From positions 1 to 64,000 of the forward strand of contig NZ_QVLR01000106.1 of the NCBI RefSeq assembly GCF_014822185.1: 64,000 nucleotides of DNA. The letters run 5' to 3'. Of this stretch, positions 31,612 to 44,398 are shown piece by piece. Source of the stretch: Azoarcus sp. Aa7. GTDB taxonomy: Bacteria; Pseudomonadota; Gammaproteobacteria; Burkholderiales; Rhodocyclaceae. The notes below the pieces were generated by a model, which saw only the letters and a list, made by a program, of their open reading frames with translations, was not told the origin of the DNA and ran no database searches. The stretch's first letter is position 1. Every line of letters begins with the position of its first letter. Both the position numbers and the translations under genes were made by a program.

Positions 31612-33387
31612 TCAGTGCCGGCTCAGCAGGAATAGCAGGATCAGGTTCAGCAGCAACGACGCGCCCGCGAGCAGCTTCAGCGCGAAGGCCGGGTTGCGTT
31701 CGGCCAGCGGCGCGCGCCGATGGGTCGCGAGCGGGCGATGCGCACCGCGCTCCAACGCCAACAGGAATTCCTCGGCGGTCTCGAACCGCTCCTTCGGCTC
31801 ACGCGCACACGCCTTCAGCAAGACGGTTTCGAGCCATTCCGGCGTATCGGGCCGATAGCGCGTCGGATGCACGGTCTCGCCGAAACGCGGCCGCTGGAAG
31901 GGTTCGACCTCGCCATACGGGTATTTGTGCGTCAGCAGCTCGTACAACGTGACGCCGCAGGCGTAGAGATCCGAGGATTCGTTCGCCTGTTGTCCCGCGA
32001 AGAGTTCCGGCGCCATGTAGGACGGCGTGCCGGGGTTGTTGATCTCGCGCAGCGTTTCGGACCCAAGCGCGCCATCGGATGCCGCGACGCCGAGATCGAA
32101 CAGGCGCAGGTCGCCCTTGCGGTCGATGTGGATGTTGTCCGGCTTGATGTCGCGATGCACGATGCCCAGCCGGTGCAGCGCCGCGACTGCGCGCAGCAAC
32201 GCGCTGCCGATCGCGACCAGTTCGTGTGCCGCGTAACGGTGGCCGCGCGCGAGGCTCGCCTTCAGCGTCTCGCCCTCGTGCCAGCTCATCAGGTAATACA
32301 GATGATCGCGCTGCGGATGCTCGCACACGCGCGGAAAACCGTGCCCCGGCACCCGGCGCGCGAGCCACTCCTCGCGCACCAGCGCCGCCATCGCCTCCTC
32401 GTCGCCCTCATCCAGACGCAGCGTCTTCAGCACCAGCGCGGCACCGTCCGCCACGCGCGTGACGCGGTACAGCAAGGTCACACGCGACTCGTGCAGCAAC
32501 TCCTCGACACGCAGGCCGTCGAGTGTCTCGCCGACCTTCAGCCGCGGCGGCAGCGGCAGGCGGCGCCCGCTCGCGAGGCGGTCGCGCAGGTTGTCGGCGG
32601 GCACCGCGTCGACGTGGGCCACCAGCGCCGTGCAGTTGTCGGTCGCGCCACGACGCAGCGCTTCCAGCACGAGCGCGTCGGCTGCCCCCTGCGGGTCGTC
32701 CCCGCGCGCCAGCAGCTCACCCATGCCATCGTCGCCGAGCGTGTTCCACACGCCGTCGCTCACGAGCAGGAAGCGGTCGCCGACCGCCAGCTCGCCGTCG
32801 TCGAAATCCACCAGCAGCTGCGCATCGAGCCCGACGGCGCGACGCAGCACGTTGTTGAGTTCGGGGTGTTCCCAGGTGTGGTCTTCGGTCAGGCGGCGCA
32901 GCGTCCCGTCGTGCCACAGGTAGGCGCGCGAGTCGCCGACATGCGCGACGTAGTAGCGCCGCCCGCGCAGCACCACCGCGGTGAGCGTCGTCGCCATGCC
33001 CGCGTAATCGCGCGACTTGGCCGACTGCGCGAGCAGCCAGCGGTTGATCGCGCCGACCACGGTATCGATCGATTTCTCGACGCTCCAGGTGTCGGGCGTC
33101 GCATAGTAGTCCGCGAGCAGCCCCCGCACCGTGTATTCGGCCGCCTCGCGCCCGTTGGCGTGGCCGCCGACCCCGTCGGCGACGGCAAGCATCAGGCCCT
33201 TGGCTTCGAGTTCCGCACCCTCGGGAGTCGCTGCGCCGACGAAGTCCTCGTTGCGCGGACGCAGGCCTTGTTGGGTGGCGTGACCGAGGCGGACGGAGAG
33301 CGGCATGGCCTTGCCCGGCCGGCGCGCGCCCGCGGGCGCCGGCAGCGGCGTCGCGGACGGAACATCCAGGGTAGCGGCCTTGTTCAT
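31612..33387 (-). CDS. Fused PP2C-type phosphatase and Ser/Thr protein kinase, membrane-anchored
   Basis: The ATG at 33387 has a GGAGAG ribosome site; the frame runs on upstream only as antisense-like shadow of the transporter gene. The 591-residue protein has a PP2C domain at about 30-260 (RPRNEDFVG, VADGVGGHANG, VGDSRAYLW, ATDNCTALV, with the metal aspartates present) and a Hanks kinase at about 275-560 (catalytic HRDIKPDNI, DLGVA in place of DFG, GTPSYMAPELF). One membrane helix (LLAGASLLLNLILLFLLS) ends the chain, so both enzymes face the cytoplasm. A Ser/Thr kinase gene also occurs in the nitrate assimilation cluster of Pseudomonas aeruginosa. Its target is unknown; the neighbouring transporter or reductases are candidates. 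Confidence 0.93.
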   Translation of the reverse strand: MNKAATLDVPSATPLPAPAGARRPGKAMPLSVRLGHATQQGLRPRNEDFVGAATPEGAELEAKGLMLAVADGVGGHANGREAAEYTVRGLLADYYATPDTWSVEKSIDTVVGAINRWLLAQSAKSRDYAGMATTLTAVVLRGRRYYVAHVGDSRAYLWHDGTLRRLTEDHTWEHPELNNVLRRAVGLDAQLLVDFDDGELAVGDRFLLVSDGVWNTLGDDGMGELLARGDDPQGAADALVLEALRRGATDNCTALVAHVDAVPADNLRDRLASGRRLPLPPRLKVGETLDGLRVEELLHESRVTLLYRVTRVADGAALVLKTLRLDEGDEEAMAALVREEWLARRVPGHGFPRVCEHPQRDHLYYLMSWHEGETLKASLARGHRYAAHELVAIGSALLRAVAALHRLGIVHRDIKPDNIHIDRKGDLRLFDLGVAASDGALGSETLREINNPGTPSYMAPELFAGQQANESSDLYACGVTLYELLTHKYPYGEVEPFQRPRFGETVHPTRYRPDTPEWLETVLLKACAREPKERFETAEEFLLALERGAHRPLATHRRAPLAERNPAFALKLLAGASLLLNLILLFLLSRH

Positions 33388-33422
33388 GCCAGGGCTCTCC
33401 GTTCGGGCCTCGAATCCGCGCC

Positions 33423-38298: not shown

Positions 38299-38358
38299 AA
38301 AAAAAACGGCGTCGCGTCGCCCCCGGGATCGAAATCCCGAAGAAACGACGGACGCCGT
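38299..38358 (-). terminator. Leader terminator (attenuator) ahead of cobA
   Basis: On the minus strand ACGGCGTC (38358-38351) pairs with GACGCCGT (38313-38306), with a second inner stem (GGGAT and ATCCC around TTCG), and is followed by eight Ts. It sits within the leader, before the cobA start, so it works as an attenuator unless the preceding hexaloop hairpin forms. Confidence 0.88.
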
Positions 38359-38415
38359 TGTCCGCATGCTCTGCACCACGCACTTCGCCGGAGCCTCATT
38401 GCCCCGGCTTGCGGT
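38299..38415 (-). promoter_or_regulatory. NasT/ANTAR-responsive leader of the cobA-nirBD unit
   Basis: The transcript from near 38413 first forms an 8-bp hairpin at 38387-38408 with hexaloop AAUGAG, then a 6-bp hairpin at 38348-38365 with hexaloop AACGGC. Both loops have A at position 1 and G at position 4, the pattern bound by ANTAR antiterminators. The second hairpin uses bases 38351-38358, which are also the 5' arm of the terminator, so only one can form. The nasT gene 5.4 kb away encodes the likely binding protein. The mechanism is inferred from structure; the bases are direct reading. Confidence 0.82.
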
Positions 38416-38423
38416 TCACCTAA

Positions 38424-38440
38424 CGCAAAATGGGTGCCAG
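38424..38440 (-). promoter_or_regulatory. Sigma-54 promoter of the cobA-nirBD unit
   Basis: On the minus strand TGGCAC-CCATT-TTGC (38439-38425) matches the -24/-12 consensus with the exact 10-bp GG-to-GC spacing. The predicted start is near 38413, at the foot of the first leader hairpin. Confidence 0.82.
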
Positions 38441-38875: not shown

Positions 38876-40249
38876 TTACGCAAAGATCACGATATCGGAG
38901 GCATCCAGATCGGCCATGCGGCCGGTCACGACCCCGAGCAGCACCGGAGCAGATCCCGCCTGGTTGCCGTCTTCGTCGTAATAGAGCTTGCCCGACGCGG
39001 TGTCGTAGATCAGGAAATCGTCCACACCCGTCTCGTTCGCGCTGGCACCGGTCAGCCCGCTACCCTTGACGAAGTTCGTCGCGGTGAACCCGGCGAGCGA
39101 CGCGAACTCCTCGGCATCGAAGCCCAGCTTGTCGACGGTTGCGTCGAAATCGTTGATGCGATGCACCGTCGACTTGGTGACCTGCGTTCCGTCCTGCTTG
39201 AACACCGTGGTGCTGGGCGGCGTGAACAGCGTGTCGAACACGAAGGTATCGCTGCCCGCACCACCCCACAGCTTGTCCGCGCCCTCGCCGAGGAAGATCA
39301 GGTCGTCGCCGGCGCCGGTCTTGATCGTGTCGTTGCCCGATGCGCCCACACCGTCCTCGGCGTAGTAGCCGTCCGGATCGATGATGTCATTGCCGGCACC
39401 GGTGGTGATCATGTCGTCGCCAGATCCGCCGATCACGACATTGTTGCCGTCGCCGGCCTTCACGATGTCGTTGCCCGTACCCGACGCAAGGAAATCGTCA
39501 CCGCTGCCGCCGGTGACGCGATCGTTGCCGTCGTCCTCGTCCACCAGGCCGATTTCGGCGAACACCGCATTGCTGCCATTGCCGGTCTGGACGTTGTCGT
39601 TGCCCGTGCCCATGTAGATGATGTCATCGCCGTCGCCCGCCTTGACCGTGTCGTTGCCGGCATTGCCATCGATCACGTCATCGCCCGCAGTGCCGGTCAG
39701 CTTGTCGTTGCCAGTCGTGCCGATCAGGCCATCCCACTCGACGACCGACCACAACAGGTTCGCGCCGTCCAGGTCGTTCCACTGCCCCGCCGCACCGAGG
39801 CCGCCGGCCGGTGCCGGCCACTTGCCGGTGGCGATCGCGAGGAAGTTCTGCATGCCGCCGAAGTTGTCCGGCTCGCCGCCGAGGCTGCCCGAGCCCCAGT
39901 TCTGATAACCCGACCCGAGCAGCGTACCGTCCAGCCACTGCCAGCTGCCTTCGCTTTGCACGTCCGAAGCGCCGAGCCAGAGATAGTCCGCGCCACCGCC
40001 GTCGTCGGCCGTAGTCGCCCCCTTGGGGACCGACGGCTTCAGGTTCTTCAGGATCGCGGCGTTTTCGGCAGCGGCACCGATCATCGCCAGGTAGGACGGA
40101 ACGATCAACGGGCCGCCGATACCCGCCCCCTCCAGTCGGCCTTCGTCGCTCCATGCGAGCCCCAGCGCGTTCGCCGAGGCATCGTCCCACGTCAGCGGGG
40201 CCGTCTCGATCTCGTAGGTATGTCCGTTGTAGTAGAAGTGCATTGCCAT
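38876..40249 (-). CDS. C-type lectin/RTX repeat protein, probable type I secretion substrate
   Basis: The product has 457 residues and no signal peptide. Residues 1-175 resemble a C-type lectin domain (YYNGHTYEIETAPLTWDDAS, DYLWLGASDVQSEGSWQWLD, EPDNFGGMQNFLAI, QWNDLDG, WSVVEWDG). Residues 178-340 are calcium-binding nonapeptides (GTTGNDKLTGTAGDDVIDG and many more GxGND units). The C-terminal 110 residues (TFVFDTLF, RINDFDATVDKLGFD, LDASDIVIFA) look like the secretion signal region of RTX proteins. It is probably exported and folds on calcium; it may bind sugars. No type I exporter genes are in the window. The ATG at 40249 has a GGAG about 10 bases upstream. It lies between the two nitrate units without obvious link. 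Confidence 0.88.
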   Translation of the reverse strand: MAMHFYYNGHTYEIETAPLTWDDASANALGLAWSDEGRLEGAGIGGPLIVPSYLAMIGAAAENAAILKNLKPSVPKGATTADDGGGADYLWLGASDVQSEGSWQWLDGTLLGSGYQNWGSGSLGGEPDNFGGMQNFLAIATGKWPAPAGGLGAAGQWNDLDGANLLWSVVEWDGLIGTTGNDKLTGTAGDDVIDGNAGNDTVKAGDGDDIIYMGTGNDNVQTGNGSNAVFAEIGLVDEDDGNDRVTGGSGDDFLASGTGNDIVKAGDGNNVVIGGSGDDMITTGAGNDIIDPDGYYAEDGVGASGNDTIKTGAGDDLIFLGEGADKLWGGAGSDTFVFDTLFTPPSTTVFKQDGTQVTKSTVHRINDFDATVDKLGFDAEEFASLAGFTATNFVKGSGLTGASANETGVDDFLIYDTASGKLYYDEDGNQAGSAPVLLGVVTGRMADLDASDIVIFA

Positions 40250-40395: not shown

Positions 40396-41187
40396 TCATG
40401 CCGCGCGTTTCAGCTGCTTCTTGTACAGGAAATCCAGCACCGCCGCGCGGCAGTGCGCGAACTCCGGTAGCTCCGCGAGCGCCAGCCGGTCGCGCGGACG
40501 CTCCAGCTTCACGTCGAGGATCTCGCCGATCGTCGCCGCAGGCCCGTTGGTGAGCATCACGACGCGGTCCGAGAGCAGCACCGCCTCGTCCACATCGTGC
40601 GTCACCATCACCATCGTCGCCTTGGTCGCCGCGAGGATCTTCACCAGCTCGTCCTGCAGCGTCGCGCGCGTCAGCGCATCGAGCGCGCCGAAAGGCTCGT
40701 CCATCAGCAGGATGCGCGGCTCCATCGACAGCGCACGGGCGATGCCGACGCGCTGCTTCATGCCGCCCGAGATCTCGTGCGGGAACTTCGTCTCGGCGTG
40801 CGACAGCCCGACCAGCGCCAACGCCTCCTGCGTGCGCTGCTTCAACTTCGCCTTGCCCTCCTTCGCGCCGAACACGCGATCGACCGCGAGATACACGTTG
40901 TCGTAGCACGTGAGCCACGGCAGCAGCGAATGGTTCTGGAACACCACCGCGCGCTCCGGCCCCGGACCGGCGATCTCGCGCCCGTCGCACAGCATCACGC
41001 CCGAGGTCGGCCGCGTGAGTCCCGCGATCAGGTTCAGCAGCGTCGACTTGCCGCAGCCCGAGTGCCCGATCAGGCTGATGCTCTCACCCTCGTGGATGTC
41101 GAGCGTGATGTCGCGCAATGCCGTGAAGGGGCCGTTCTTCGTGTTGAAGACCTGGCCGACGCTCTCGATCTGTACGATCTTCTTCAT
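40396..41187 (-). CDS. nrtD: Nitrate ABC transporter ATP-binding protein
   Basis: A 263-residue ABC ATPase of the nitrate/sulphonate/bicarbonate family. Walker A (GHSGCGKST, about 43-51), the signature SGGMKQR, Walker B (RILLMDEP) and the switch histidine (THDVDEA) are all intact. It powers NrtB. The usual nrtC fusion ATPase is missing, so NrtD probably forms a homodimer. An AGGAG-type ribosome site precedes the ATG at 41187. The gene ends the nrtABD unit. Confidence 0.95.
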   Translation of the reverse strand: MKKIVQIESVGQVFNTKNGPFTALRDITLDIHEGESISLIGHSGCGKSTLLNLIAGLTRPTSGVMLCDGREIAGPGPERAVVFQNHSLLPWLTCYDNVYLAVDRVFGAKEGKAKLKQRTQEALALVGLSHAETKFPHEISGGMKQRVGIARALSMEPRILLMDEPFGALDALTRATLQDELVKILAATKATMVMVTHDVDEAVLLSDRVVMLTNGPAATIGEILDVKLERPRDRLALAELPEFAHCRAAVLDFLYKKQLKRAA

Positions 41188-41205: not shown

Positions 41206-42156
41206 TCAGCGGTTTTCGTAGTTGAAGCGTCGCGCCACCAGCATCAGCGCCTGCTCGAGGATCAGGCCGACGATGCCGATCACGAAGATCGCGATGATGA
41301 TGTGCTCGACCTTGAGGTTGTTCCATTCGTCCCACACCCAGAAGCCGATGCCCACGCCGCCGGTCAGCATCTCGGCCGCGACGATCACCAGCCACGCCGT
41401 GCCGATCGACAGGCGGATGCCCGTCAACATGTAGGGCAGCGCCGCCGGGAACAGGATCTTGGTGAACACCTTCCATTCGGACAGATTCAGCACCCGCGCA
41501 ACGTTGAGGTAGTCCTGCGGCACGCGCGTCACGCCCTGGGCGGTGTTGAGGATCATCGGCCAGATCGAGCAGATGAAGATCGTCCAGGTCGCCGCCGGGT
41601 CGGCGCGCTGGAACACCAGCAGGCCGATCGGCAGCCACGCGAGCGGGCTCACCGGGCGCAGCAGGCTGATGATCGGGTTCATCATCTTCGACAGCACGGC
41701 GAAGCGCCCCAGCATGAAGCCCGCCGGAATGCCCACCAGCGCCGCGATGCCGAAGCCGATGGCGACGCGCTGCAACGAGGCCAGCACGTTCCAGCCGATG
41801 CCCTGGTCGTTCGGCCCTGCGCGGTAGAAGGGATCGGCGAAGATCGCCACCGCCGCATCCCAGGTCTTCGCGGGGGTCGGAATACCGCCGCCGTTCATCG
41901 TCGCGAGATGCCACAGGCCGATCAGCAGCGCGAGTCCCGCCAGCGGCGGCAGCACCGCCTGCAGCAACGCACGCCCCCACGCGGAGACGACGCGCATCCG
42001 GCTTCGAGTCGCCGCCGCCGGCGCCGTGCCCACCTCTTCAGCCGTCGCCACCTTCATTACCTTCCCCTTGTCGGTCGCAGCCGATACCACCCGCAACTTC
42101 GAAATCTTCCCGGTCCCGGGCTCGTCCATCCGGTCCACCACCGCTGCCAACGTCAT
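41206..42156 (-). CDS. nrtB: Nitrate ABC transporter permease
   Basis: A 316-residue inner-membrane permease of the binding-protein-dependent type. After a 60-residue cytoplasmic N-terminus, membrane segments begin at ALLQAVLPPLAGLALLIGLW and continue to the end. The ATPase-coupling EAA-like loop is in ARVLNLSEWKVFTKILFPAA. It is 16 bp from nrtA and 18 bp from nrtD. Confidence 0.95.
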   Translation of the reverse strand: MTLAAVVDRMDEPGTGKISKLRVVSAATDKGKVMKVATAEEVGTAPAAATRSRMRVVSAWGRALLQAVLPPLAGLALLIGLWHLATMNGGGIPTPAKTWDAAVAIFADPFYRAGPNDQGIGWNVLASLQRVAIGFGIAALVGIPAGFMLGRFAVLSKMMNPIISLLRPVSPLAWLPIGLLVFQRADPAATWTIFICSIWPMILNTAQGVTRVPQDYLNVARVLNLSEWKVFTKILFPAALPYMLTGIRLSIGTAWLVIVAAEMLTGGVGIGFWVWDEWNNLKVEHIIIAIFVIGIVGLILEQALMLVARRFNYENR

Positions 42157-42172: not shown

Positions 42173-43432
42173 TCAGGCCTTGACCTTGAACGACCCGGCG
42201 TACTTCGCCGGATCCTTGCCGTCCCACACCACGCCGTCGATCAGCTTGTGGCTGCGCATCTCGCTCTTGGGCAGCGGCACGTTCGCCGCCGTGGCTGCCT
42301 GCTTGTAGATGTCGATGCGATTGATCTGCTTCGCCACGGCGAGGTAATCGACGTCGCGGTCGAGCAGCCCCCAGCGCCGATGCTGCGTCAGGAACCACAT
42401 GCCGTCCGACAGGTAGGGGAAGTTCACCGCGCCGTCGTTGTAGAACTTCATGTAGTTCGGGTCGTCCCAGCTCTTGCCGAGGCCGTTCGAATAACGGCCG
42501 AGCATGCGCTCGAGGATCACGTCCATGTCGGTATTGACGTAGGACTTCTGCGCCACCGTCTCGGCCGTCGTGCGGCGGTTCGGCAAGGACGAATCGATCC
42601 AGCGCCCGGCCTCGAGGATCGCAGCAGTCAGCGCGCGCGCCGCGTTCGGGTGCTTCGCGACCCAGTCGGAGGTGGTGCCGAGCACCTTCTCCGGGTGATC
42701 GGTCCAGATGTCCTGCGTCGTCACCGCGGTGAAGCCGATCTTGTCCATGATCGCGCGGTTGTTCCACGGCTCGCCGACGCAGAAACCGTCCATGTTGCCG
42801 ACGCGCATGTTCGCGACCATCTGCGGCGGCGGCACGGTGATGACCTTCACGTCCTTCAGCGGGTTGATGTCGTGCGCCGCCAGCCAGTAGTACAGCCACA
42901 TCGCGTGAGTACCGGTCGGGAAAGTCTGCGCGAAAGTGTATTCACCGGGCTTCGACGTGATCAGCTTCTTCAGGCTCGCGCCGTCGGTGACGCCCTGGTC
43001 CTTCAGCTTGTTCGCGAGCGTGATCGCCTGGCCGTTGTTGTTGAGCGTCATCAGAACGGCCATGTCCTTCTTCGGCCCGCCGATCCCGAGATGCACGCCA
43101 TAGACGAGGCCATACAGCACGTGCGCCGCGTCGAGTTCGCCCGACACCAGCTTGTCGCGCACCGACGCCCAGCTCGCTTCCTTGGTCGGGATGATCTTGA
43201 TGCCGTACTTCTCGTCGAATTTCTGCACTGCGGCCATCACCACCGACGAGCAGTCGGTCAGGGGAATGAAGCCGACGCGAATCTCCTTCTTCTCCGGCGC
43301 ATCCGACCCGGCCGCCCATACGCTGCTGCTCGCCCCCAGCCCTGCAGAACCCATCATCGCCGCTCCAGAAAGCGCCATCGTCCGCCGCATGAATTCGCGC
43401 CGCGTGATGCCATTGTCGTCGAATGCACTCAT
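42173..43432 (-). CDS. nrtA: Nitrate ABC transporter substrate-binding protein (Tat-exported)
   Basis: The ATG at 43432 has a GGGAG ribosome site 6 bases upstream and is preferred over ATG 43438. The 419-residue product begins with a twin-arginine signal (TRREFMRRTMALSGAAMMG) cleaved near VWAAG. The mature part is a NrtA/CmpA-type periplasmic-binding fold (EIRVGFIPLTDCSSVVMAA, TFPTGTHAMWLYYWLAAH, VGNMDGFCVGEPWN). It delivers nitrate to NrtBD. NasS sensors are close relatives, but they lack an export signal, so this protein is transport rather than sensing. The gene stands downstream of the second regulated leader. Confidence 0.94.
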   Translation of the reverse strand: MSAFDDNGITRREFMRRTMALSGAAMMGSAGLGASSSVWAAGSDAPEKKEIRVGFIPLTDCSSVVMAAVQKFDEKYGIKIIPTKEASWASVRDKLVSGELDAAHVLYGLVYGVHLGIGGPKKDMAVLMTLNNNGQAITLANKLKDQGVTDGASLKKLITSKPGEYTFAQTFPTGTHAMWLYYWLAAHDINPLKDVKVITVPPPQMVANMRVGNMDGFCVGEPWNNRAIMDKIGFTAVTTQDIWTDHPEKVLGTTSDWVAKHPNAARALTAAILEAGRWIDSSLPNRRTTAETVAQKSYVNTDMDVILERMLGRYSNGLGKSWDDPNYMKFYNDGAVNFPYLSDGMWFLTQHRRWGLLDRDVDYLAVAKQINRIDIYKQAATAANVPLPKSEMRSHKLIDGVVWDGKDPAKYAGSFKVKA

Positions 43433-43450: not shown

Positions 43451-43509
43451 CAGAAAAACAAAAACGGCGCTCATCGCCCGCGGAGGATTCCGCGGGGATG
43501 GACGCCGTT
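43451..43509 (-). terminator. Leader terminator (attenuator) ahead of nrtA
   Basis: On the minus strand AACGGCG (43509-43503) pairs with CGCCGTT (43469-43463), with an inner CCGCGGG/CCCGCGG stem (43496-43490 with 43483-43477), followed by TTTTTGTTTTT. It is placed before the nrtA start like the one before cobA. Confidence 0.88.
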
Positions 43510-43581
43510 GTCCGTAGCTTGCACCAGGCCCCTGCACTGGAACCGGTGAATCTGCTGTCGAACCGCCGTTGATTCGACTCG
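43451..43581 (-). promoter_or_regulatory. NasT/ANTAR-responsive leader of nrtABD
   Basis: Three hexaloop hairpins precede the terminator: 8-bp stem at 43557-43578 with loop AACGGC, 6-bp stem at 43527-43544 with loop AGUGCA, and 4-bp stem at 43500-43513 with loop AACGGC. All loops have A at position 1 and G at position 4. The last one overlaps the terminator 5' arm (43503-43509). It shares the 15-base stretch CGGACAACGGCGUCC with the cobA leader. The design fits NasT-mediated antitermination. Confidence 0.83.
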
Positions 43582-43591
43582 AGACTTACTT

Positions 43592-43608
43592 AGCAGATGC
43601 TGTGCCAG
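43592..43608 (-). promoter_or_regulatory. Sigma-54 promoter of nrtABD
   Basis: On the minus strand TGGCAC-AGCAT-CTGC (43607-43593) has the conserved GG and GC with 10-bp spacing. The expected start, near 43581, is just ahead of the first leader hairpin. Confidence 0.8.
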
Positions 43609-43697
43609 TCGCAAAAAACGGGGCCATAAGGCTTTGCCCGCAAGGGATTTCGCCCGATCGGCAGGGAGCGGAGGCCAGGCGCAGGACGCACCGAAGC

Positions 43698-43714
43698 CGC
43701 ACTATTGCAGTGCA
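43698..43714. promoter_or_regulatory. NtrC-like enhancer site upstream of nrtA
   Basis: CGCACT-ATTGC-AGTGCA is a dyad that differs from TGCACY-N5-RGTGCA only at the first base. It lies about 100 bp upstream of the sigma-54 promoter. A half-site at 43729-43734 may be a second, weaker site. Confidence 0.7.
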
Positions 43715-43822: not shown

Positions 43823-44398
43823 CTACAGCAGGTACTTCGCCATGTCGATGAGATCCTGCGCGACCACCGCCATCGGTTTCGCGCGCTCCATCGCGAGCTT
43901 GCGCAGCGCCGCATACGCCTCGGCCTCGTCCATGCCGCGGGACTTCATCAGCAGCCCCTTCGCACGGTCGATCAGCTTGCGCTCGGACAACTTCTTCGTC
44001 GCCGCCGCAAGCTCGGCACGCAAGGCCTGATGCTCGTCGAAGCTCGCCACCGCCACGTCGATCACGGGCTTCAGGCGCTGCGGATCCATCCCATCGACCA
44101 CATAGGTCGATACGCCCGCCTTGACCGCCGCGCGTATCGTCTCCTGGTCACCTTCCTGCGCGAAGATGATCACCGGGCGAGGCATCTCCGCGTTCATCAC
44201 GGCAAGGTTCTCGAGCGTGTCGCGCGACGGGGAGTCGGTCTCGATCAGGATCACGTCGGGACGGATCGCCTCGATCTGCGCCGACAGGTCCGCCGAGGAC
44301 GCGAGCACCGCCGCCACCTGGTGACCGGCGAGCGCCAGCCCGGCACAGATTTCGGCCGCCCGGGCACGGGATTCATCGATGACGAGTACGCGCAGCAT
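43823..44398 (-). CDS. nasT: NasT-type antiterminator (receiver-like + ANTAR domain)
   Basis: A 191-residue RNA-binding regulator. Residues 1-120 are a receiver-like domain (LRVLVIDESRARAAEICAGL, DVILIETDSPSRDT). Residues 125-190 are the ANTAR domain (RKLIDRAKGLLMKSRGMDEA, then AYAALRKLAMERAKPMAVVA). In other bacteria NasT binds twin-hexaloop leader RNA to stop termination of nitrate genes and is held off by the NrtA-like sensor NasS when nitrate is absent. No nasS is adjacent here. Codons upstream of the ATG at 44398 are open but not family-like. Its targets are plainly the leaders at 38299-38415 and 43451-43581. Confidence 0.93.
   Translation of the reverse strand: MLRVLVIDESRARAAEICAGLALAGHQVAAVLASSADLSAQIEAIRPDVILIETDSPSRDTLENLAVMNAEMPRPVIIFAQEGDQETIRAAVKAGVSTYVVDGMDPQRLKPVIDVAVASFDEHQALRAELAAATKKLSERKLIDRAKGLLMKSRGMDEAEAYAALRKLAMERAKPMAVVAQDLIDMAKYLL

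Follow-up and report, generated by a model that had tools for sequence, protein, structure and literature searches.

The window analysed in this study, a stretch of 64,000 nucleotides from Azoarcus sp. Aa7, carries genes for nitrate uptake on its minus strand, and the leader RNA described here has the same sense and lies between nasT and nrtABD. The genes concerned are the following:

43823-44398, minus strand: nasT, directly 5' of the leader, encoding receiver-like and ANTAR RNA-binding domains (Pfam ANTAR 67 bits, Response_reg 34.3 bits)
42173-43432, minus strand: nrtA, nitrate-binding ABC protein (PF13379, 350.6 bits)
41206-42156, minus strand: nrtB, nitrate ABC permease (TIGR01183, 248.7 bits, cut-off 209.05)
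40396-41187, minus strand: nrtD, nitrate ABC ATPase (TIGR01184, 335.3 bits, cut-off 291.8)

NrtA has by eye a twin-arginine-like leader and is 94% identical to NrtA of A. evansii, its best match in our collection of named records; the genus group was taken as Aromatoleum, the genomes of which carry NrtA proteins that are 93-97% identical. Two neighbouring frames on the minus strand may be mentioned. The open reading frame at 38876-40249, between nrtD and a second leader, contains glycine-aspartate repeats, which we take to resemble those of RTX proteins, and a frame at about 31612-33400, between a narK-like transporter and nitrate reductase, resembles by eye a fusion of a protein phosphatase and a serine/threonine kinase.

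NasT is the sole ANTAR match in the genome at E <= 0.001. A NasS of the usual kind was not found in this genome, which is rated 100% complete: searches with PF13379 and with the NrtA protein both return NrtA alone, and we therefore conclude that NasS of the usual kind is absent while NasT is present. When NasT is compared by eye and simple spacing with the RNA-reading residues named for EutV (PMC8934654), R142, K143, E160, Y164 and M172 are kept and K147 is replaced by R; the equivalents of N173, R175 and R177, which in EutV are reported to be together needed for binding (PMC8934654, excerpt), are not kept.

The leader region is made up of these elements:

43698-43714, minus strand: dyad TGCACT-N5-AGTGCG, 5' of the promoter, assigned by sequence
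43592-43607, minus strand: sigma54-type promoter TGGCACAGCATCTGCT, assigned by sequence
43557-43578, minus strand: H1, GUCGAAUC-AACGGC-GGUUCGAC, 8 bp, -11.0 kcal/mol when folded as a short stretch
43522-43548, minus strand: H2, the extra hairpin, CACCGGUUCC-AGUGCA-GGGGCC(U)GGUG, 10 bp with one bulge, -13.9 kcal/mol
43500-43513, minus strand: H3, the antiterminator hairpin, GGAC-AACGGC-GUCC, 4 bp, -5.5 kcal/mol
43460-43509, minus strand: intrinsic terminator, its main stem starting at the first loop base of H3 and ending in TTTTT

The dyad, at which the segment described in an earlier note on this DNA stops (43714), is presumably NtrC-like by its consensus, and on our understanding of sigma54-type promoters and their start rule the RNA should start near 43581, three bases before H1. 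The loop and 3' arm of H3 sit within the 5' arm of the terminator, and both this overlap and folding show that the two structures are mutually exclusive. For the terminator stretch 43458-43517 the folding energy is -38.6 kcal/mol (z -6.77), and a second T-run follows 3' of the terminator, to 43454. The linkers between H1 and H2 and between H2 and H3 are 8 nt each. All three loops have A at position 1 and G at position 4 on short stems, and this A1/G4 hexaloop is the signature of ANTAR targets (PMC3369931, excerpt). The element thus looks like an ANTAR (NasT)-type antitermination leader with three hairpins, not the two of the standard ANTAR antiterminator RNA. This is in agreement with the earlier note, which had described three hexaloops, a terminator and a 15-mer common to two leaders, all of which are in place in the minus-strand sense, and had read the whole as a NasT-type leader with an extra hexaloop, a reading supported by the 67-bit ANTAR score of the upstream gene.

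The 15-mer, CGGACAACGGCGTCC, occurs in the window without mismatch at 43500-43514 and 38350-38364 only. Its second copy belongs to a leader with these parts:

38299-38439, minus strand: second leader, before cobA-nirB, with promoter, first hairpin, last hairpin and terminator
38424-38439, minus strand: sigma54-type promoter
38387-38408, minus strand: first hairpin, hexaloop AAUGAG
38350-38363, minus strand: last hairpin, the terminator running to 38299

This leader also has CGGACAACGGCGUCC in common with the nrtA leader. By eye a middle stem is present as well, which corrects the earlier note, but the middle loop starts with G and a mismatch interrupts the copy in the window, and with G at loop position 1 only two signature hairpins are counted there. 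A search of the 5.39-Mb genome for the last-hairpin pattern followed by TTTT within 10-68 nt returned two sites, before nrtA and before cobA-nirB, although such patterns are not specific alone (read backwards, they give 2 and 3 matches). With a longer genus pattern, which has no backward match in 17 Aromatoleum genomes, exactly two leaders were found in each of 11 genomes and none in the other 6, and the same 11 genomes have nrtA.

The 22 Aromatoleum leaders were assigned to an nrtA type and a nirB type from the four bases that follow the last hairpin rather than from their downstream genes. In the nrtA-type leaders the first hexaloop is A1/G4 in 11/11 and the middle loop in 9/11. The middle loops read AGUGCA, AAAGCA (2), AAUGCA, AGUGCU, AAUGCG, AAUGUC (3) and GGUGCG (2), such that positions 2, 3, 5 and 6 of the H2 loop vary, while G4 is kept in all 11 and A1 in 9; since the two leaders with GGUGCG lack A1, the extra signature is dispensable there. 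The nirB-type leaders likewise have an A1/G4 first hexaloop in 11/11, and their middle stem, followed by eye (L318, L321, L322, L327-L330 and L333-L336), has the loop GRUGCA in 10/11 and AAAGAA in one. The middle stem therefore seems to belong to both Aromatoleum leaders, and the NasT-like loop to occur almost only before nrtA. For three of ten Aromatoleum nrtA leaders (L006, L119 and L123) nasT was not found in the upstream stretch examined; it may lie elsewhere in those genomes.

For a wider comparison the region preceding nrtA was gathered at 301 loci, low-scoring matches being left out; the named members point to Burkholderiales. After removal of 4 loci that were too short, 76 without the last-hairpin pattern and T-run and 24 duplicates, 197 leaders were retained. 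A nasT relative precedes 172 of them in the same orientation; none was found in the upstream stretch examined for the other 25, including the three Aromatoleum leaders. By a loose pattern, 191 of the 197 have a sigma54-type promoter ahead of the last hairpin, and 186 leaders entered the stem census. Five loci of one genus (code g53; L044, L047, L054, L060 and L062) have a sigma54-type promoter about 80 bases before nrtA and no last-hairpin pattern, and attenuation may be absent in them.

Hexaloops were counted if they had A1/G4, at least 5 pairs and -5 kcal/mol or better and lay between the promoter and the last hairpin. On this count 17 leaders have none, 138 one, 39 two and 3 three (n=197). 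At least two are present in 42/197 leaders, compared with 3/1,970 dinucleotide shuffles, among which one or more hexaloops occur in 4.6% and two in 0.15%. Each of the 15 alternative letter pairs for positions 1 and 4 of the loop gives at most 17/197 leaders with one or more such loops and at most 2/197 with two, and hairpins folded in the same manner just upstream of promoters have A1/G4 in 8/575 cases. The shuffles, the letter decoys and the hairpins off the promoter together rule out chance hexaloops. Nor is the arrangement a single-genus oddity, as leaders with at least two upstream hexaloops are found in Aromatoleum and genera of its family (codes g8, g21 and g36), in named Herminiimonas, Keguizhuia, Noviherbaspirillum, Acidovorax, Cupriavidus and Undibacterium, and, besides the named loci, across 12 GTDB family codes, a few leaders among which have weak or far loops (L072, L112 and L246). 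On a FastTree tree of NasT (112 leaders, 27 of them triple) the triple state requires at least 9 changes, compared with a mean of 24.2 and a least value of 19 in 200 label shuffles; it is clustered, yet not a single gain without loss.

The stem census places these counts in relation to leader length. Short leaders (<50 nt) have one upstream hexaloop in 51/55 cases, and the 14 leaders longer than 82 nt are of mixed types. The 117 leaders of 50-82 nt divide into hexaloop-hexaloop (39), hexaloop followed by a plain stem (35), hexaloop alone (28), plain stem followed by a hexaloop (10) and no hexaloop (5); L085, scored as hexaloop-hexaloop, probably has a chance loop, and L020 was scored as plain-hexaloop despite a visible first hexaloop. 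Since 39 of the 117 leaders in this length class have three hexaloops, the description of the window leader in the earlier note as having one more than the usual pair was too strong. The 85 leaders with two upstream stems carry the signature on both in 39, on the first only in 35, on the middle only in 10 and on neither in one (Fisher one-sided p 0.015, two-sided 0.021, with relatedness ignored), and where their middle loop is of 6 nt it is A1/G4 in 49/52, compared with the 8/575 among hairpins off the promoter. From the first-only and middle-only stems it follows that the signature may sit at either upstream position, and that neither stem is always needed. A third hairpin slot is thus common in relatives, where it holds sometimes a signature loop and sometimes a plain stem. 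This gives some substance to the suggestion in the earlier note that the third hairpin offers a choice of pairs, in that the signature is on the 5' stem only in 35/117, on the middle stem only in 10/117 and on no upstream stem in 5/117; in the window leader, however, only H1-H2 and H2-H3 are well spaced, as detailed below.

A middle hairpin might be expected to fold by chance in any long gap. Of the long leaders that have a first hexaloop, 101 in all, 80 contain a gap hairpin good enough for the filter, compared with about 49% expected from shuffled gaps; by class these are 39/39, 35/35 and 6/27, the first two classes being defined by having one. The median energy of the gap hairpin is -14.6 kcal/mol in triple leaders and -6.8 kcal/mol in the comparison. 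On these results H2 as noise of a long gap was rejected.

The earlier note had named a covariation analysis that fails to support the three stems as the refuting test, and the outcome differs between the hairpins. Across ten Aromatoleum leaders no non-standard pair was counted in any of the three hairpins. One H2 pair alternates between UA (4), CG (3) and UG (2), but 57/500 shuffles reach this score and the set diverges little, so that it does not allow a decision. Within family code f15, three further loci that lack the last-hairpin pattern were set aside, and the eight leaders used show changes on both sides in 5/17 pairs (reached by 11/500 shuffles), of which 4/8 are in H2 and 1/5 in H1, and 97.7% of cells pair, which 1/500 shuffles reach and which compares with 20-48% in slid controls. 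H1 and H2 are therefore supported in f15. H3 is invariant in both sets and so is silent in this analysis; its fourth pair over 39 triple leaders is GC in 34 and AU in 5, counts that lean towards pairing because these leaders were chosen for having hairpins.

The distances between loops bear on which hairpins may work together. In short leaders (n=51) the median distance between the upstream and the last loop is 23 nt (range 19-33). In hexaloop-plain leaders (n=35) the distance is 44 nt raw and 23 nt after subtraction of the middle stem (21-28, 10-90%), and in triple leaders (n=39) the middle and last loops are separated by a median of 25 nt and the first and last by 59 nt raw, with a subtracted median of 29 nt (23-37, 10-90%; 26 by a slightly different cut). 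In the window leader the loops of H2 and H3 are 29 nt apart and those of H1 and H3 61 nt raw, or by arithmetic 34 nt with H2 looped out; H2 thus sits where the single partner of short leaders sits, and H1 lies beyond that partner's whole range. In the eut leaders of E. faecalis the linkers are reported to measure 5-12 nt, and induction is impaired with linkers of 3 or 14 nt (PMC3369931, excerpt). With both linkers of 8 nt within these limits, H2 and H3 qualify as a proper pair, and H1 and H2 are spaced alike. A strict spacing rule, however, was rejected and holds loosely only: when the gaps of hexaloop-plain leaders are shuffled, those that fold leave 24 nt (10-90% 19-35, compared with 21-28 in the real ones), and among the 27 long leaders whose one hexaloop lies 35-59 nt away from the last loop, 21 have no middle stem that passes the filter.

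Taking these results together, we favour the interpretation, at a probability of about 0.58, that the leader is a nitrate-regulated NasT attenuator in which H3 is the antiterminator, H2 its direct partner and H1 an extra landing site. Judging from the promoter, transcription driven by NtrC and sigma54 would begin some three bases 5' of H1. In the absence of active NasT the terminator, at -38.6 kcal/mol, would beat the short H3, at -5.5 kcal/mol, and nrtABD would not be transcribed. Active NasT would bind an upstream A1/G4 hexaloop and then hold H3, and since the H3 loop and 3' arm are common to the terminator, an H3 held in this way would let the polymerase read on. H2, separated by the 8-nt linker, would be the direct partner of H3, while H1, 8 nt before H2 and the first to emerge, would serve as an additional landing site that raises the odds of NasT being on the RNA ahead of terminator formation; we infer this division of labour and this gain in capture, as well as the binding itself, from the arrangement of the hairpins and from related systems, while the layout of the leader, the overlap of H3 with the terminator, the conserved loop signature and the spacings are seen in the sequences themselves. 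H1 might also stand in where H2 has lost its signature, although at 34 nt from H3, compared with 19-33 nt in short leaders, it would be poorly fitted for this in the window leader. The two GGUGCG leaders, the three Aromatoleum leaders for which no nasT was found upstream, the EutV residues that by eye are not kept and the lack of a NasS of the usual kind also weigh against this interpretation. In the related systems NasT binds the nasA leader RNA (PMC3795266, excerpt), the Paracoccus nasA leader has two hairpins, HI and HII (PMC5424462, excerpt), and for EutV it is argued that P1 recruits, that P2 antiterminates and that one dimer is unable to hold both hexaloops (PMC8934654, excerpt).

It is also conceivable, though in our view unlikely, that H2 is mainly a structural spacer, the stem of which brings H1 and H3, as the working pair, closer together, its own hexaloop being incidental. 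The plain middle stem in 35/117 long leaders and the 23 nt that remain after subtraction, as in short leaders, are what such a spacer would give, and the second Aromatoleum leader has a G1 middle loop in 10/11 genomes by eye. The 23 nt are, however, partly forced, given the 24 nt (19-35) left by shuffled gaps, and the subtracted H1-H3 distance in triple leaders is longer and wider (median 29, 23-37) than in leaders with a plain spacer (23, 21-28). An incidental loop also sits poorly with A1/G4 in 49/52 middle loops of 6 nt and with the signature on the middle stem alone in 10/85 leaders. Extending the model of one hairpin at a time (PMC8934654, excerpt), one could further suppose that NasT loads on the emerging H1 and moves to H2 and then to H3, tracking transcription. 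Both steps have an 8-nt linker, the step medians in triple leaders are 32 nt (first to middle) and 25 nt (middle to last), and the argument that a single dimer is unable to grip the two hexaloops of an RNA together (PMC8934654, excerpt) would fit such a movement; but leaders with a single upstream hexaloop are common, so that an obligatory two-step relay is unneeded, and we regard this possibility as quite improbable. We see very little likelihood in the idea that two NasT dimers, or a larger assembly, occupy the three hairpins at once and steepen the response, which builds on the suggestion of the earlier note that a second dimer may bind. It draws on NasT being oligomeric once freed from NasS (PMC3795266, excerpt) and on the 2:1 binding of EutV (PMC8934654, excerpt); however, three is an odd number of sites for pairs, and no result here separates it from the other readings.

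In ANTAR dual-hairpin antiterminators (eutP/EutV, nasF/NasR and amiE/AmiR; PMC3369931, excerpt) there are likewise A1/G4 hexaloops, a last hairpin overlapping an intrinsic terminator, an encoded ANTAR protein and nitrogen genes downstream, but two hexaloops in place of the three found here. The nasA leader of Paracoccus denitrificans (PMC5424462 and PMC3795266, excerpts) is similar in that nasT is beside the operon, the leader has hairpins and there is an NtrC site, which in that case lies before nasT; it differs in having the two hairpins HI and HII and nasS, which was not found here. The EutX small RNA of Enterococcus (PMC8934654, excerpt) is also reported to have an additional single hexaloop besides the dual motif, but is a sequestering small RNA and not the leader of a transporter operon. 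No three-hexaloop NasT or ANTAR mRNA leader was recognised in the searchable literature, a scope outside which most subscription journals fall. Within that scope the leader differs from the described ANTAR leaders in having three hexaloops where they have two, with the extra hexaloop of EutX mentioned in PMC8934654 as the nearest precedent.

Two Rfam families also resemble the leader, in the part at 43546-43606 (minus strand). The consensus of narK RNA (RF03032) has a sigma54-like start, an AACGGC hexaloop and then GAC-AAAGAC-GUC, and its model pairs the first hairpin only and has no third hexaloop; that of P11 (RF00625), in the portion of the alignment available, has GGCACA..CUGC, a CAACG loop, GGACAAAGGCGUCC and a closing GGACGCC arm. 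The window leader scores below both cut-offs (narK 23.3 compared with 43.2 bits, P11 16.9 compared with 70 bits). Among 20 relatives five match one or both families (L095, L087, L281, L283 and L065): L095 passes for narK (44.8 bits) with three more weak matches, and two matches to P11 stay below its cut-off, the best being L281 (44.1 bits). On these sequence features narK RNA reads as a sigma54-type promoter with a NasT hexaloop pair, and P11 as an attenuated NasT leader.

More generally, we tentatively propose, at somewhat less than even odds, that the nitrate leaders of this order form a modular class in which each upstream stem either presents a NasT hexaloop or, as a plain stem, shortens the distance by folding, and in which the signature is almost never lost from both stems, so that the natural series would be a test of dimer use, and with NasT operating here without NasS. 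How an ANTAR dimer uses two hexaloops is disputed, one hairpin at a time being proposed in PMC8934654 and recognition of tandem hairpins in PMC3369931 (both excerpts). The question could be settled with natural variants, in which the same place is taken by an extra hexaloop or by a plain stem; if the proposal is true, the series of one-site, spacer and two-site leaders would show whether an ANTAR dimer grips two hexaloops, passes from one to the other, or needs only a single one near the terminator. In addition, the comparison offers a reading for the Rfam narK RNA and P11 families and points to a NasT that is switched without NasS.
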